Notes under the pieces: generated by a model | What the model was told of the DNA's origin: nothing | The model's input: only the letters and a program-made list of their open reading frames with translations | The model's database searches: none | Position numbers and translations under genes: made by a program | Assembly: GCF_000153405.2 (NCBI RefSeq) | Contig: NC_020802.1 | Coordinates: 453,883-517,882, forward strand | From: Psychromonas sp. CNPT3 | GTDB lineage: Bacteria; Pseudomonadota; Gammaproteobacteria; Enterobacterales; Psychromonadaceae | Length of the DNA: 64,000 nt | Reading direction: 5' to 3' | Part shown: one piece after another, positions 55,495-63,287 of the stretch | Layout: the number at the start of each line of letters is the position of its first letter | Numbering within the stretch: position 1 is the first letter of the stretch

Positions 55495-55553
55495 AATGTT
55501 TCCTGATCTAATGTTATTCAATCACCACGTTGGAGGTGTTTAACTTTCAAATT

Positions 55554-55588
55554 GTTGATTGTTGATTGTTGATTGTTGATTGTTGATT
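55554..55588. repeat. Five tandem copies of a 7-bp repeat upstream of sdaA
   Basis: GTTGATT is repeated perfectly five times, 60-94 bp before the sdaA start, where promoter elements are expected. Confidence 0.95.
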
Positions 55589-55668
55589 GATAATTCAATG
55601 ACAACCAAGTGTGTTAGTACTTACTTAGTAGCCGTGAGTATACATTGTTTTTATGTTTCATTAATGAG

Positions 55669-56230: not shown

Positions 56231-56255
56231 AAAATGCGGACAAAATCCGCATTTT
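56231..56255 (-). terminator. Terminator at the queG 3' end
   Basis: AAAATGCGGA and TCCGCATTTT form a perfect 10-bp stem with a 5-base loop; the T's of the right arm serve as the tail on the minus strand. The stem includes the queG stop codon. Confidence 0.6.
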
Positions 56256-57423
56256 AGGCATCACGCGGTAGGCCTTTTTCGATACTGCGTACTAATCGAT
56301 TAGTCAGGCGCTCGTTGTGAATGGGAATATTTTGTTGGTGTTGCTCTAACGCCCATTGTATGTGCTCATTAACCAATGCATCATCGCTATTTTTTAATTT
56401 TAATTGTAGGGCTTGCACCGTTTCAACATGACAAGGTGCGTTACCCAGAGCGACGGCGATATTACGCAGCCAACGTTGATAGCCAATACGGCGAATAGGA
56501 GAACCTTCGGTATTTGTTAAAAATTCTTTTTCAGTCCACGCAAACAAGTCTAATAAAGGTTGCTCTTTGAGCTGCGAACGCGCTTGAAAATCAGCTTCTT
56601 GCGTTGTATTAGAAAAACGGTTCCAAGGACAAATTAACTGGCAGTCATCACAACCGTATATCCGATTTCCTAATGCCTTACGAAATTCAACGGGAATAGC
56701 ACCTTGTAATTCAATCGTTAGATATGAGATGCAGCGCCGTGCATCGACAACATAAGGCGCAACAATAGCGCCCGTTGGGCATATTTTAATGCAGGCAACG
56801 CATTGTCCACATTTTTCTTCGACGGGTTTATCAATAGGCAGTGCGAGATCAATTAATAGCTCACCGATAAAGAACCATGATCCGGTCTTCCCGTCAATAA
56901 GTAACGAGTGTTTTCCGACCCAGCCAAGGCCTGCTTTTTCTGCGAGAGGGCGCTCTAAAATAGGCGCGCTGTCAACAAAGGGGCGATAACCCAGTTTACC
57001 CACTTGTAATTCTATCTTTTGACCCAGTTGTTTGAGGCGTTTTCGTAATACCTTATGGTAATCACGGCCCAAGGCATAACGACTGATATAGGCATTATTT
57101 TTATTGCGTAATGTCCGTGCAAATTGTGCATCTTCTGGTAAATAATCCATACGCACGGATATCACGCGTAATGTACCCTGAAGTAACTCGGCAGGGCGAG
57201 CGCGCATCATGCCATGTTTTTGCATATAGTCCATTTCGCCGTGGTAGCCGTTATCTAACCATTGCTGTAACTTTTCTTCATGTGCACTAAGGTCAGTATC
57301 GGTGATACCAACATGTTGGAATCCCAACTCTTTCCCCCACATTTTTATGTCTTGAGCAAGACCAATCAGGCCAATATTTTCTGTGCTAGTAGGATTTTCT
57401 AAGATAGGTTCTGATTGGGTCAT
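56254..57423 (-). CDS. queG: Epoxyqueuosine reductase QueG
   Basis: QueG performs the final step of queuosine synthesis, reducing epoxyqueuosine in tRNA with cobalamin and two [4Fe-4S] clusters. The 389-residue protein has WGKELGFQHVGITDTDL near the N-terminus, GYHGEMDYM, the first ferredoxin-like set CGQCVACIKICPTGAI near residue 200 and the second CDDCQLICPWN near 258. ATG 57423 is chosen near the family start; the frame to 57474 adds unmatched residues. It is divergent from the nnrE remnant and tsaE, as queG, nnrE and tsaE are arranged in E. coli. Confidence 0.95.
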   Translation of the reverse strand: MTQSEPILENPTSTENIGLIGLAQDIKMWGKELGFQHVGITDTDLSAHEEKLQQWLDNGYHGEMDYMQKHGMMRARPAELLQGTLRVISVRMDYLPEDAQFARTLRNKNNAYISRYALGRDYHKVLRKRLKQLGQKIELQVGKLGYRPFVDSAPILERPLAEKAGLGWVGKHSLLIDGKTGSWFFIGELLIDLALPIDKPVEEKCGQCVACIKICPTGAIVAPYVVDARRCISYLTIELQGAIPVEFRKALGNRIYGCDDCQLICPWNRFSNTTQEADFQARSQLKEQPLLDLFAWTEKEFLTNTEGSPIRRIGYQRWLRNIAVALGNAPCHVETVQALQLKLKNSDDALVNEHIQWALEQHQQNIPIHNERLTNRLVRSIEKGLPRDA

Positions 57424-58266
57424 TTCATTCTCATAGAGTCTAACTTTATGGGCTTTGTTGTGTTTAAAATTCAAAGCAGTCTAGCACATTTTTTATATAC
57501 TAGGCAGCAGTAAAAATAGAGAGGAAGTGAGATTAAATTAACGAGGATATGGCCCATGGTTCACATTATCTTTCGGCGGGAAAAGTTTGGAATTTTACGG
57601 ACTTTAGTCATGTATTTATGCAACTTTTTTACATTTAAGCAGTCCTTCTTAATAATCGTAAGCGTATGGCTGAACAAATCGTAACTCAAGGGGGTATAAA
57701 TATTGTTTCGCTATAGGCATTCCAAGGTATGAGGATATCTGTTTTTTGGCCTTTTAAATCTCATTAAGTAGCTATGCCATGGTAAAAGTATTTACACAAG
57801 TGATAAATAAAAGCATATTACACAGTGAGCGATCTAAAATCAGGCTTCATTCTTTGATTCTTTGAGTGTCATTGATGCAGATGCATTTATTTATTCGTAT
57901 GATATGGGTATAAGTATCCATAAAAGAGTGCTTGTGTATTGGGTCTCTCTATCGCAGAAGTTGAATAATATCGCTATACTGCATCGGAGCATGACAACCT
58001 AATAATGCTGGATTGGTTATTTTAAAGGCGATGGAAGTTTAGTTTTTGATGGAAAGCAGATTGAAGTCGCAGATACAGGATGAATGGATATGCCCTGTGG
58101 TGGTATATAAGATGTTGTTTCTGCTATCATTGACTTCGTCGAATAAAGCTTAAACGCACCAGCGGTATGTATCCATGCTTTAGTAGAGCGTTTACCGTAA
58201 AAAAGAGCCTAGAGATTTATTAGGCAGTGATCTCTTCCCTTATATTAGGAAATTAGTAAACCCATA
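57424..58266. other. Long gap queG / tsaE, site of a decayed nnrE
   Basis: About 840 bp with no intact frame. From about 57618 to 58190 it reads as fragments of nnrE (annotated as a pseudogene). The first 190 bp presumably holds the queG promoter. Confidence 0.75.
57618..58190 (+). pseudogene. nnrE: Decayed NAD(P)HX repair enzyme gene nnrE
   Basis: No open frame survives, but pieces of NnrE (epimerase plus ADP-dependent dehydratase) can be read in order. RMAEQIVTQGGINIVSL at 57663-57712 resembles the NnrE N-terminus. VIDADAF at 57862-57882 matches the conserved DADAL motif. NAGLVILK at about 58004-58027, then KGDGSLVFDG in the next frame (one A lost from the A-run at 58024), and G-stop-MDMPCGGI-stop-DVVSAII at 58078-58131 align residue for residue with the dehydratase motif GNAGMATGGMGDVLSGII. 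At about 570 bp it is far shorter than the usual 1.5 kb, so large internal deletions occurred. The place, between divergent queG and tsaE, is where intact nnrE lies in E. coli. Confidence 0.85.
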
Positions 58267-58725
58267 ATGTTTGATTTATATAAAGAAAATTTAGTAGATG
58301 CAGAGCAAACGGTACTGTTTGGTAAACGTTTGAGTGCCGCATGTGACACTGCCATTTGTATTTATTTACACGGTGATTTAGGTGCTGGTAAAACCACGTT
58401 AACACGAGGTTTCATTCAAGGTTTAGGTCATAAAGGTCATGTTAAAAGCCCTACTTATACATTGGTAGAGCCTTACGAACTTGAAACTTGGACTGTTTAT
58501 CATTTTGATTTATATCGATTAGGCTCTCCTGAAGAATTAGAATTTATGGGTATCCGCGACTATTTTACAGATCAAAGTCATTGTCTTGTCGAATGGCCAG
58601 AGCGTGGAGAAGGCGTGTTAGCGCAAGCAGATATTGATTTAACATTACGTTATGTCGGTGAGCAACGCTGTATCGAATTGCAAGCAAATACAGAAAATGG
58701 CCAAAGAGTATTAAAAAAACTATGA
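58267..58725 (+). CDS. tsaE: tRNA threonylcarbamoyladenosine biosynthesis ATPase TsaE
   Basis: TsaE is the ATPase that drives the TsaBCDE cycle making t6A37 in ANN-decoding tRNAs. The 152-residue protein has Walker A HGDLGAGKTTLTRG near residue 36, KSPTYTLVEPYE near 65, and the conserved FDLYRLGSPEELEFMGIRDY and LVEWPERG stretches. Its stop overlaps the amiB start as ATGA. It now follows the nnrE remnant, which in relatives would be the gene before it. Confidence 0.95.
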   Translation: MFDLYKENLVDAEQTVLFGKRLSAACDTAICIYLHGDLGAGKTTLTRGFIQGLGHKGHVKSPTYTLVEPYELETWTVYHFDLYRLGSPEELEFMGIRDYFTDQSHCLVEWPERGEGVLAQADIDLTLRYVGEQRCIELQANTENGQRVLKKL

Positions 58726-61466
58726 AAGAGCGAAAAAGACGACTGACCTTACCTTTATTTTTAATGAGTTGCCTCTTATTTGGTTTTTCGAGTGCTGTTT
58801 TTGCATCTACGCAAAACACATTAAATGGCGTGCGATCATGGCCATCTCCGGAAAATACGCGCGTTGTTTTGGATTTATCACAAAAAGCCAAATATGCCAT
58901 ACATTATTTAAAGAAGCCGGATCGTTTAGTGATTGATTTAAAGTCCACCACGAGTGTGCTTGATTTCACTAAAATTAAACATAAAGGGCCTTTGGTTAAA
59001 AATATTCGTCACAGTGCGACCTATCAAGAAGGCGTTTACCGCTTAGTTATCGATTTAAAACAAGCCAGTAAAGCAATTATTTTTGCACTTTCTCCTGCAC
59101 AACCTTATGGGCACCGATTGGTGATAGATTTACCGCATAAGGCCACAAGTATCCCGGTAAAAAAAGTGCCACCTCGCAAGATTGTTCGGGTTGGACGTGA
59201 CGTCATTATTGCGGTTGACGCAGGTCATGGCGGAGAAGATCCCGGTGCGTTAGGACGTTTCAGTCAAGAAAAAAAAATAACGTTACAAATAGCGAAGCGC
59301 CTTAAAAGACGCATTGATCAACAAAAAGGCATGACGGCGATTTTGATCCGTACGGGCGATTATTATATTAATTTGAATAAACGCTCTGAGATAGCACATC
59401 AAGGTAAAGCCGACTTTTTAGTTTCTATTCATGCCGATGGTTTTACTTCGAGTCAACCAAGTGGTGCTTCCGTTTGGATTTTATCGGATAAACGTGCGAA
59501 TTCTGAAATGGGTCGACGTATGGAAAATCATGAAGTACATTCAGAGTTACTCGGGGGTAAAGGTAAAATAAAAGAAGAATCGTCCAGTGTACCTTTTTTA
59601 AATAAAATGTTTTTCGATATGTCGAAATCTAATTCGATGTTAGTGGGCGCAGAAGTGGCGCGAGGCGTTGTTTCTGAATTAGGTAAAATTACGAAGCTAC
59701 ATAAAAAAAGACCGGAGCGAGCGAGCCTTGCTGTTTTAAAATCGCCTTATATCCCTTCTATTTTAGTGGAAGCTGGCTTTATTACCAACCATCGAGAAGA
59801 GCGCTTGTTAGGGCAGGCGTCTTATCAAAAGAAAGTCGCTAATGCTGTCTTTAAGGCAATTTACAAACACTTCATTGACTCGCCTCCCCATGACTCTTTA
59901 TTTGCCCAGCGTAAACGTGCTATCAAGCATACGGTGCGCAGTGGTGAATCATTAGCTAACTTAGCGACTCGCTACAGTATTTCTCTGAATCAGTTAAAAT
60001 CCTATAATAATCTGCATTCTAATACGCTGCGCATTGGCCAAGTATTAAAAATTCCTGCAGATTATGAGCTGGTGGTGAAACACGATGTACCCTCTGATAA
60101 TCGCGCTTATGCTAGCCTAGAAAATAAGTGGCAGATCCCGCGCGTGTATAAAGTAAAAAATGGTGAGTCATTGTCCATTATCGCGCAACGTTATAACACC
60201 TCAGTGAGTCAGTTAAAACAACAAAATAACTTACACTCTAGTACGTTACGTGTAGGTCAAAAAATTAAAATACCCGGAGTGGCGACGCAACGAGTGATGG
60301 CAGAAACGGATGCGGTGTTGTCAACGGCAAGTGTACATATCGTTAAACGTGGCGAGTCTTTATCTATTATTTCTGCCCAGTATAATATTAATATGACTCG
60401 CTTAAAAGCGTATAATAATATACATAAAAATTCGATTAATGTCGGTCAGAAAATTAAAATACCGGGGATCAGCTATACACAAATAGCACGACAGAAAAAA
60501 GAGAAAGCCTCTCGTTATTATAAAGTGAAAAAAGGCGATTCGTTATCGGAGATTGCCCGCGATCAGCAGATATCGTTAGCCGATCTTAAACGTTGGAATA
60601 AGTTACGTTCCAACTCGGTTAACATCGGCCAAAAATTATATGTGCGTGCACCAAGTAATGTCTTATCAAAGGCAGATAAGACGAAAAAAACAAGGCTACA
60701 TATCGTAAAACGTGGTGAGTCACTATCTGTGATTGCACACAGTTATGGTTTTATCAGTGCAGATCTTATGCGCTTTAATCATTTAAGCTCTAGCAAATTA
60801 GCCGTCGGTCAAAAATTAAAACTGTATGCGTCACAACCCCAAGCACGTCAATCGGTGCATCGCGTTAAAAGCGGGGAGTCGTTATCGGTGATTGCGAAAA
60901 AATATAATCTGAGTAGCCGTGATCTTATGCGCTTTAATCATTTAAACTCGAGCAGATTATCGGTCGGACAAAAATTAAAACTTTATGCTGTAAAAAATAA
61001 GGTAAGACAAACCCAGCATACCGTTAAAAGTGGCGAATCGTTATCTGTGATAGCGCAACAATATGGGCTCAGTAGCGCACGCTTGAAAAGTATTAATCAG
61101 CTGCGTAGTAGCGCATTAAGGATAGGACAAAAATTAAAGTTGTCAGGTATTAATGCGCCATTAAAAAAACCAATGCATAAAGTGAAGTCAGGTGAAAATC
61201 TGTCATTAATCGCCAATCAAAATGCGCTTAGTGTGTCCACGTTAATGCGCTATAATAATTTATCGTCCGCCACGCTACATGTGGGGCAACTGCTTAAAAT
61301 TCCTGAAAATAACGTAGCATCGACACATTATAAAGTGCGTAGTGGAGAATCTCTTTCTGTGATTGCTGCGCGTTATGGCGTGTCGATTAAAAGATTAAAA
61401 CAATTTAACCATTTAAACTCAACAGGACTTTCCGTAGGTCAACTTCTACGTATACCTGTGAGTTAA
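58722..61466 (+). CDS. amiB: N-acetylmuramoyl-L-alanine amidase AmiB with nine LysM domains
   Basis: AmiB cleaves the amide between MurNAc and L-Ala at the septum, activated by EnvC-like proteins. The protein has 914 residues, about twice the E. coli length. Residues 1-29 are a signal peptide; 30-135 are an AMIN domain (LNGVRSWPSPENTRVVLDLS); 160-395 are the Amidase_3 domain with zinc ligands in DAGHGGEDPGA (His169), SIHADGF and the catalytic Glu in LVEAGFITN. From residue 402 to the end are nine LysM repeats of 45-60 residues, each with V.SGESLSVIA..Y and LKIGQKLKI-type ends. Most family members have zero to two. It is translationally coupled to tsaE and followed by mutL. Confidence 0.95.
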   Translation: MKERKRRLTLPLFLMSCLLFGFSSAVFASTQNTLNGVRSWPSPENTRVVLDLSQKAKYAIHYLKKPDRLVIDLKSTTSVLDFTKIKHKGPLVKNIRHSATYQEGVYRLVIDLKQASKAIIFALSPAQPYGHRLVIDLPHKATSIPVKKVPPRKIVRVGRDVIIAVDAGHGGEDPGALGRFSQEKKITLQIAKRLKRRIDQQKGMTAILIRTGDYYINLNKRSEIAHQGKADFLVSIHADGFTSSQPSGASVWILSDKRANSEMGRRMENHEVHSELLGGKGKIKEESSSVPFLNKMFFDMSKSNSMLVGAEVARGVVSELGKITKLHKKRPERASLAVLKSPYIPSILVEAGFITNHREERLLGQASYQKKVANAVFKAIYKHFIDSPPHDSLFAQRKRAIKHTVRSGESLANLATRYSISLNQLKSYNNLHSNTLRIGQVLKIPADYELVVKHDVPSDNRAYASLENKWQIPRVYKVKNGESLSIIAQRYNTSVSQLKQQNNLHSSTLRVGQKIKIPGVATQRVMAETDAVLSTASVHIVKRGESLSIISAQYNINMTRLKAYNNIHKNSINVGQKIKIPGISYTQIARQKKEKASRYYKVKKGDSLSEIARDQQISLADLKRWNKLRSNSVNIGQKLYVRAPSNVLSKADKTKKTRLHIVKRGESLSVIAHSYGFISADLMRFNHLSSSKLAVGQKLKLYASQPQARQSVHRVKSGESLSVIAKKYNLSSRDLMRFNHLNSSRLSVGQKLKLYAVKNKVRQTQHTVKSGESLSVIAQQYGLSSARLKSINQLRSSALRIGQKLKLSGINAPLKKPMHKVKSGENLSLIANQNALSVSTLMRYNNLSSATLHVGQLLKIPENNVASTHYKVRSGESLSVIAARYGVSIKRLKQFNHLNSTGLSVGQLLRIPVS

Positions 61467-61484: not shown

Positions 61485-63287
61485 ATGCCAATTCAAATTT
61501 TAGCGCCTCGTCTTGCCAATCAAATTGCTGCCGGCGAAGTGGTTGAACGTCCTGCTTCTGTGGTCAAAGAGTTATTAGAAAACAGCTTAGATGCAGGGGC
61601 TTCGCGTATTGAGATCGACATTGAAAAAGGGGGGGCAAAGTGCATACGTGTTAAAGATAATGGACAAGGCGTCGCCAAAGATGAATTGACCTTAGCGTTA
61701 AGCCGTCATGCAACGAGTAAAATTAGTCACCTTGATGATCTTGAAGCAATAATGAGCTTAGGTTTTCGAGGAGAAGCTCTGGCAAGTGTGAGCTCTGTTT
61801 CTAGGCTAACGTTTACGTCAAAACCGCAGGATCAAGAGCAGGCTTGGCAAGCGATTGCAGAAGGGCGAGACATGCAAGTGCATATTAAGCCCTGCGCACA
61901 CCCACAAGGGACCACTGTTGAAGTCTTAGATTTATTTTTTAATACACCCGCGCGTCGACGCTTTTTAAAAACCGAAAAAACTGAATTTCAGCATATTGAT
62001 GAATTAATTCGTCGTTTAGCGCTTAGTTATTTTGATATCTCATTTACGCTAAAACACAACGGTAAAATAATCCGTCAATATCGCCCTGCCTCAACGCCAA
62101 CGCAACAACTAAAACGTTTGGCGAGTATTTGCAGTGATAGCTTTGTCAAAAGTGCTTTACACTTTGAAAGCGCCGATCAGGGTTTAAAAATATCGGGCTG
62201 GATCTCAGATAGGCTCTCACCTCGGACTTTAGGCGATGTACAATATTGTTATATTAATGGTCGGATCATTCGTGACCGATTGGTTAATCATGCGATAAAG
62301 CAAGCCTATGCGCGTATATTACCCGCAGGTTTCTTCCCCGGTTTTGTTATTTATATTGATTGCCCCGCAGAGCAAGTGGATGTAAACGTACATCCGTCTA
62401 AGCATGAAGTGCGTTTTCATCAAGCGCGTTGGGTGCATGATTTTATTGTGAGTACACTGAGCGTGACGTTAAACGATCCTGAGATGTTAATGGCGACAAG
62501 TCAGAAGGGTGAAACCGTACCTAGTTATATACCGAGTCCGGTCACCAATGCGTCATCAAACGAGAGCATCCCAACGCCTACGTATACACCAAAACATCAT
62601 TATCAAGCCCCTATTGATGAGGCGCAAGTTAATGCTTATTGTGACTTTATTCGTCCACATGTTGTACCGGAATCGCAAATATCCACACTACCAAAAAGTC
62701 GATTAACATTACCCTTGGCCATAGTTTCTGAATACTATTTATTGCTGCAAGCCTCTGTAAATAAAACGGGAAGTAGCTCCCCTTTATACCTTTTATCTTT
62801 GCCAAAAGCGGATCAACTTTTACAACAAACACGATTATTTGAGGCTTGGAAAAACGGAGAAGTAATAGCACAACCTTTATTATTACCGGTGCGCTTATCT
62901 TTAGACTCACAATTGCCGTCTTTAAACGCTGCTGGTGAAATCCTTTTGCAGCGTTTAGGTTTTAGCGTAAAACAAAAAATGCAGAAATTAATTGTGAGTA
63001 AAGTACCTGCACTATTACGCCAAGGCCCTGTCGCTAAAATATTACCGGTGTTATTAACGTATTTAAAATCTTTTGAGGAGGCCTTAACGGAATCTGAAGT
63101 TAATGATTTTTGTGCCTTGATCGTGCGAACCCATGCGCAGTTACAAACTCAAGATAAGAAATGGCTCTTTAGTGATGGCTGTGAATTATTACAAAACATA
63201 GAGCAACATTGCTCATTAGAAACAACCAGTGGGCTCTTTTTTGAGCCAGATCTTTCTCTCTTACTCCAAGGCGTCTGTGATGCATAA
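61485..63287 (+). CDS. mutL: DNA mismatch repair protein MutL
   Basis: MutL links MutS mismatch recognition to downstream excision. The 600-residue protein has the GHKL ATPase motifs: [14 protein letters not shown] (motif I, catalytic Glu), DNGQGV (II), RHATSKI and [10 protein letters not shown] (III); [15 protein letters not shown] ends the N-terminal domain. The linker (about 330-390) is Pro/Ser/Thr-rich, and the C-terminal dimerisation domain has no DQHAxxE endonuclease motif visible, as in Dam-using enterics. Its end overlaps miaA by 8 bases. Confidence 0.97.

Follow-up and report, generated by a model that had tools for sequence, protein, structure and literature searches.

We infer that in Psychromonas sp. 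CNPT3 the gene nnrE, whose product repairs damaged NAD(P)H in other bacteria and which here lies between queG and tsaE and is as good as certainly a pseudogene, carried control DNA of its two neighbours, and that this DNA has probably outlived the dead gene around it. The strain was isolated at a depth of 5,700 m, its source being a decaying amphipod (PMC3668011), and the window analysed here is the whole stretch of 64,000 nucleotides containing the locus. The new point is that the survival of nnrE pieces does not appear to be random: the same short groups of former codons are still legible after separate losses of the gene, and they coincide with candidate start signals of the genes on either side.

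The nnrE remnant in CNPT3 and the losses within Psychromonas

Intact Psychromonas nnrE genes have about 500 codons, the first of which lies a few tens of bases away from where queG begins. CNPT3 has 843 bases between queG and tsaE (57424-58266), where the remnant shares with the bifunctional NAD(P)HX epimerase-dehydratase NnrE/YjeF (PF03853 plus PF01256) its place, its C-terminal sequence and the spacing of the core motif, but lacks the epimerase domain and an open frame (Table 1). For queG, the TTG at 57474 given by the mechanical ORF list was set aside in favour of the ATG at 57423 after comparison with the start regions of relatives. Elsewhere in the window, short tandem TTGATTG-like units occur at 55553-55590, between two minus-strand ORFs.

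Table 1 Features of the queG-nnrE-tsaE region, in window positions
Feature	Position	Strand	Basis or remark
queG	56254-57423	-	TIGR00276, 514 bits; start by relatives' start regions
nnrE pseudogene, overall	57466-58264	+	between queG and tsaE
N-terminal nnrE scrap, profile 7-21, KIQSSLAHFLYTRQQ	57466-57510	+	profile test and nhmmer
Element 1, TGCTAGACT, extended -10 type, candidate queG promoter	57478-57486	-	inside former nnrE codons SLP
Erased middle, without recognisable nnrE	57511-57867	+	shuffle test on 57511-57860
VIDADA scrap	57868-57885	+	marginal taken alone
C-terminal quarter of nnrE (dehydratase)	57915-58264	+	five stops, three frame breaks
Element 2, TTTCTGCTATCAT (extended -10 type TGNTATNAT), candidate tsaE promoter	58118-58130	+	inside former codons LSGII
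Element 3, last nnrE codons, putative tsaE leader	58211-58266	+	sequence comparison with relatives
tsaE	58267-58725	+	TIGR00150, 163 bits
ORFs after tsaE, presumably amiB and mutL	58722-61466, 61485-63287	+	ORF list

A frame-shift-tolerant profile alignment of the C-terminal quarter scored 139 over positions 377-500 of the 500-position profile, compared with a mean of 26 (sd 2, maximum 32) for 40 dinucleotide shuffles, and the consensus is matched at 57 of the 115 aligned codons; nhmmer recovers the same region at E 1e-34. With tblastn, ten of 11 Psychromonas NnrE queries matched the remnant (best E 2e-13), the only query without a row (L007) being a cut fragment. The N-terminal scrap, a remainder of about 15 codons, scored 38.9 against shuffles with a mean of 16.1 and sd of 2.7 (0 of 200 as good) and matched nhmmer model positions 28-73 at E 8e-4, while no NnrE likeness was detected over 57511-57860, where 15 of 60 shuffles were equally good against the profile. 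The dehydratase core reads T-G-stop-M-D-M-P-C-G-G-I-stop-D-V where relatives have V-G-N-P-G-M-A-S-G-G-M-G-D-V. Neither the loop GGMGDVLSG in an open frame nor the YjeF_N epimerase domain is found, and CNPT3 nnrE, as read from this sequence, cannot yield a functional NAD(P)HX epimerase or dehydratase. Translated similarity at the ancestral place, together with intact copies in sister species, marks the gene as a pseudogene.

The initial annotation had described readable remains of nnrE at 57618-58190, and the dead gene is indeed at its ancestral place, with the dehydratase core at its spacing, two of its residues turned into stops, and one alignment frame break at 58190, near the A-run (about 58199) in which a frame shift had been noted. 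The proposed extent was too narrow: the N-terminal scrap and the best-kept C-terminal end (58211-58264) fall outside it. The DADA motif it pointed to is present as VIDADA, with a score that is by itself marginal (26.5, the top of 200 shuffles being 26.2). An intact copy does exist in sister species, the epimerase domain being kept by 11 of 24 Psychromonas genomes, or 10 of 21 among good assemblies.

In a QueG plus TsaE tree of 23 Psychromonas and four outgroups, the ten nnrE-less genomes of P. arctica and its kin form one group (support 99). CNPT3 and G009, the latter represented by TsaE alone, fall among the nnrE-bearing species and apart from the P. arctica group (support 93), the choice of their nearest neighbour being supported at only 50; on this tree nnrE was lost at least twice within Psychromonas. 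G009 is the closest genome found (TsaE 91% identical to CNPT3; about 1.7 Mb in three contigs). At this place in G009 (L090, 5865-8014) an ABC-F type gene, which we take to be ettA-like, now lies upstream of tsaE. G009 is a sister lineage of CNPT3 in which nnrE has likewise decayed, to the tail, and is probably the amphipod-gut Psychromonas CDP1, whose genome reduction to 1,688,241 bases in three contigs has been described (PMC5893861); it differs in having no recognised queG and no element 1, and element 2 is absent from it too. The accessible part of the main text of that report mentions neither CNPT3 nor pseudogenes.

Candidate start signals inside nnrE codons

An extended -10 sigma-70 motif consists of TGN followed by a TANNNT hexamer, and this promoter class does not require a -35 box. 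Element 1, which reads TGNTAAACT in relatives, has this composition at a fitting distance from queG, 55 bases before the ATG. Neither element 1 nor element 2 has a -35 box, and a scan for -35 plus -10 pairs lists neither of them (count 2, shuffles' mean 3.7). The pattern AGT[TC]TANCA stands beside queG in all 11 intact Psychromonas and in 10 of the 11 nnrE-less ones with queG, G020 deviating by one mismatch. Beyond the genus, A.T[TC]TA.CA was found near queG at 25 of 48 loci, taken from 71 non-Psychromonas loci, against 2.3 expected: at 10 of 18 with nnrE in place, at all four Photobacterium loci with a fossil tail, and at 11 of the 26 from which nnrE is absent at this place, among which are three Moritella, three Aliivibrio and Motilimonas. 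The 15 nnrE-less queG-tsaE gaps from which it is missing are mainly from Vibrio, most of which are without it.

Within nnrE itself, the string AGT[TA]TACCA occurs in 18 of 26 genes lying at most 250 bases from queG and in one of 17 others (Fisher 4e-5, the Fisher tests ignoring relatedness and many rows being close kin), so that eight of the 26 are without the exact string. For these adjacency counts five of the 48 loci, having no nnrE frame with the loop motif, were dropped, E. coli was assigned manually to the genes next to queG, and one carrier (L131) was missed, its frame having been opened too far upstream; seven of the 17 others are Photobacterium with queG next door at more than 250 bases. 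Two Aeromonas spell S-L-P as AGT-TTA-CCA, for which local codon use gives a chance of 0.0004-0.0006. In E. coli K-12, the queG and nnr starts overlap by two bases, the codons AGT-ATA-CCA-CAC read TGTGGTATACT toward queG, and the counterpart of element 1 is AGTATACCACA. This pair, as yjeS-yjeF, is listed in the accessible part of a survey as a 5'-overlapping double-stranded RNA cluster (PMC7373196). As far as that source can be compared, the gene pair is the same and nnrE seems to contain the start signal of queG, but in CNPT3 one partner is dead and the survivors include the part that would serve the other. Judged by its conservation and its link with queG adjacency, element 1 is likely the start signal of queG.

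On the tsaE side, CNPT3 and its four nearest intact relatives show 92% identity over the element 2 block, which shares the top place among 342 windows with one in the SDLFP codons. Where CNPT3 reads TTTCTGCTATCAT, all ten genomes of the P. arctica group and seven of 11 intact Psychromonas have TTTCTGNTANTAT, the other four having TATCAT. Among nnrE genes beside tsaE, 15 of 37 carry TGNTA[TC][ACT]AT at the LSGII codons, compared with none of six others (P 0.08, not significant); the carriers are families f9, f17 and f22, Aeromonas (with the rare ATA codon), two Photobacterium and E. coli, and the remaining 22 are without element 2. As a promoter candidate element 2 is weaker than element 1, and we lean only slightly towards its being the tsaE start signal. 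It may instead have been kept as a leader peptide, an RNA element or a regulator site, which we think improbable: in G003/G017 and G008/G016/G023 it opens, by eye, a 16-codon frame from ATG CTT TCT upstream of tsaE, possibly a leader peptide, but this frame is not kept (again by eye) in the group's five remaining genomes, those of P. arctica and its kin, and the window holds no RNA family over the Rfam cut-off and no tRNA.

The start region of tsaE (58236-58269) is 85% identical to the four nearest intact relatives, against 56% elsewhere. In the P. arctica group the element 3 tail is recognised by eye only, and in Photobacterium loci that lost nnrE at this place (L160, L164-L166) roughly the last 30 codons are kept up to tsaE. 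It is reasonably likely that the nnrE tail has become the leader of tsaE.

What outlives nnrE

In the 11 nnrE-less Psychromonas genomes read that keep queG, the old codons SLPHSLY and LSGII persist, and traces of the last nnrE codons before tsaE are visible by eye. When the last 600 bases before tsaE were searched with the profile and compared with 15 shuffles per genome, scraps stood out clearly in G003, G017 and G020 and weakly in G015; the six remaining members of the P. arctica group did not rise above their shuffles, and G009 had the tail only. A clean deletion of nnrE in the P. arctica group was considered and is rejected, scraps remaining in at least some of its genomes. When an nhmmer DNA model of intact nnrE (1515 positions) was run on 12 nnrE-less gaps, 17 matches at E<=10 were obtained: five at model positions 28-73 (SLPHSLY), eight at 1276-1360 (GGMGDVLSGII), the 3' ends of CNPT3 (1154-1515) and G009 (1411-1515), and two elsewhere. 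Seven of them have E<0.01 and ten are weak (E 0.5-6.3), eight of these ten lying within 28-73 or 1276-1360; the gaps of G013 and G021 gave no match at all, and the tail was not matched anywhere in the P. arctica group.

Across six lineages of the P. arctica group, pairwise identity at fourfold sites in queG and tsaE is 29-55%, with 4 of 42 sites invariant, and the greater part of the gap cannot be aligned. Over the same lineages 11 of 13 positions of element 2 are invariant (binomial 4e-10; 5e-6 at a rate of 0.23), as are 7 of 10 of element 1 (7e-6; 2e-3 at a rate of 0.23), these values taking the 42 fourfold sites as yardstick and being uncorrected for the choice of the best block. Between CNPT3 and its four nearest intact relatives, identity is 56% over the 308 positions that align beyond the two kept blocks, and the element 1 block reaches 71% compared with 43% on either side.

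Silent positions were scanned in ten intact Psychromonas nnrE genes, with limits from 1000 permutations and G018 dropped for its broken frame. The top window, ASGGMGDVL, reached 0.95 (99% limit 0.89); the second, the stretch ending in SLP, reached 0.76, just under the 95% limit of 0.77; and the tail, at 0.41, was far under the limit. In tests of named windows, which were chosen after the scraps had been seen and run after the scan and are not fully independent, SLPHSLY and ASGGMGDVLSGII were each reached by 0 of 20000 simulations, with P 0.0065 for the VLSGII core and P 0.011 for the tail. In the same scan of queG and tsaE, neither intact nor nnrE-less genomes had a window exceeding the 95% limit, and a search of queG for a silent-site peak that might point to a promoter of nnrE found none.

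An ordinary pseudogene, its core still visible through youth or because its motifs are easy to recognise and the promoter-like overlap a coincidence, would account for a CNPT3 alignment that spans 350 bases, well past the elements, and for the SDLFP window being kept as well as element 2. We nevertheless hold this to be unlikely, as the P. arctica group retains the same pieces after its separate loss, with silent sites and most of the gap diverged to the extent given above, and as intact nnrE genes conserve silent positions at the very pieces that are kept. The initial annotation had also considered the pseudogene recent enough to align by eye; this is doubtful because the epimerase domain is erased, G009 has decayed as well and the 308 positions outside the kept blocks are only 56% identical. 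The dehydratase core may have been preserved through constraint on the DNA, not through youth.

CNPT3 would tolerate NAD(P)H hydrates or make few of them. On the reading that we favour, nnrE would have sat between two genes with control DNA inside its coding sequence. The reverse strand of the SLPHSLY codons would form the extended -10 that starts queG, as conservation and adjacency suggest; the forward strand of the LSGII codons might, on weaker grounds, form one able to start tsaE, and the last nnrE codons would serve as the tsaE leader. After the death of nnrE, drift would have erased most of the remaining gene and the control pieces would have stayed because, we propose, their loss would cost the neighbours' expression. 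The separate loss in the P. arctica group would have taken the same course.

Loss of nnrE across the order and its meaning

The CNPT3 genome has no match to PF03853 and four to PF01256, of which two lie near the cut-off and are identified by NCBIfam as ThiD and ThiM, the other two being weaker (17.4 and 12.5 bits). A second nnrE copy, for which the initial annotation had wished to see the rest of the genome searched, is not recognised in these sequences. Errors in A-runs are typical of 454 sequencing. Although CNPT3 was sequenced by combining Sanger and 454 reads, with PCR used for finishing (PMC3668011), it is extremely improbable that nnrE works or that its function lies elsewhere, and sequencing errors restoring the frame, raised earlier as a possible refutation, are rejected together with recoding: the epimerase domain is missing from the remnant, PF03853 has no match in the genome, stops stand at 5 of 115 codons, and the sister G009 has decayed too.

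Loss of nnrE had been called uncommon in fast-growing bacteria; that it is uncommon is not supported by the counts, which were made irrespective of growth rate. The epimerase domain is absent from 13 of 24 Psychromonas genomes (G009, G019 and G020 being weak by assembly figures, and G019 having neither queG nor tsaE, its nnrE place unread); from 135 and present in 262 of 397 genomes across the order (>=95% complete, evenly drawn, very small reduced genomes included); and absent from 8 and present in 33 of 41 named genomes reached through tsaE loci, for which completeness figures were not given and which come from 42 of the 71 non-Psychromonas loci. Those without it include Aliivibrio fischeri and Vibrio lentus; the cold-living Moritella and P. 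profundum keep it. That Vibrio, Moritella and others simply lost nnrE was rejected, since of 23 searched genomes whose queG-tsaE gap is without full nnrE, 15 carry the epimerase domain elsewhere and eight are without it. Vibrio loci such as L102 and L107-L112 have no nnrE between queG and tsaE, and many Vibrio genomes have it elsewhere; none was found in V. tapetis, V. chagasii, V. lentus, Aliivibrio fischeri or Aliivibrio sp. EL58. Photobacterium carnosum has a fossil of the nnrE tail before tsaE (L165, 2861-3307) and a 491-codon frame with the epimerase domain elsewhere (G438), as if nnrE had been moved or regained. In one draft Psychromonas (G018, C127 25857-26556; L072, L187) nnrE is broken in its dehydratase part, which could be a draft error or an early further loss.

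According to the accessible part of one study (PMC5938422), both activities were found in 1,248 of more than 1,600 genomes of prokaryotes, and deleting yjeF in E. coli did not obviously impair growth on LB or M9-glucose. Judged from listings, a literature search turned up no report on bacterial nnrE loss or on elements 1 and 2. A wider reading, for and against which we see about equal weight, is that nnrE is dual-purpose across much of the order: its codons would carry the start signals of both neighbours, lineages that drop nnrE would keep the same skeleton of it for use as promoter DNA, and the surviving bits could be foretold from the silent-site signature seen in living genes.

A routine pseudogene thereby becomes a test of why some gene remnants persist. 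If the reading is true, silent-site conservation in living copies marks the pieces that survive separate gene deaths, and a clean deletion of nnrE (yjeF) may disturb queG and tsaE. The natural nnrE-less relatives, with at least two losses in Psychromonas, can be used to study under which conditions cells need NAD(P)HX repair.
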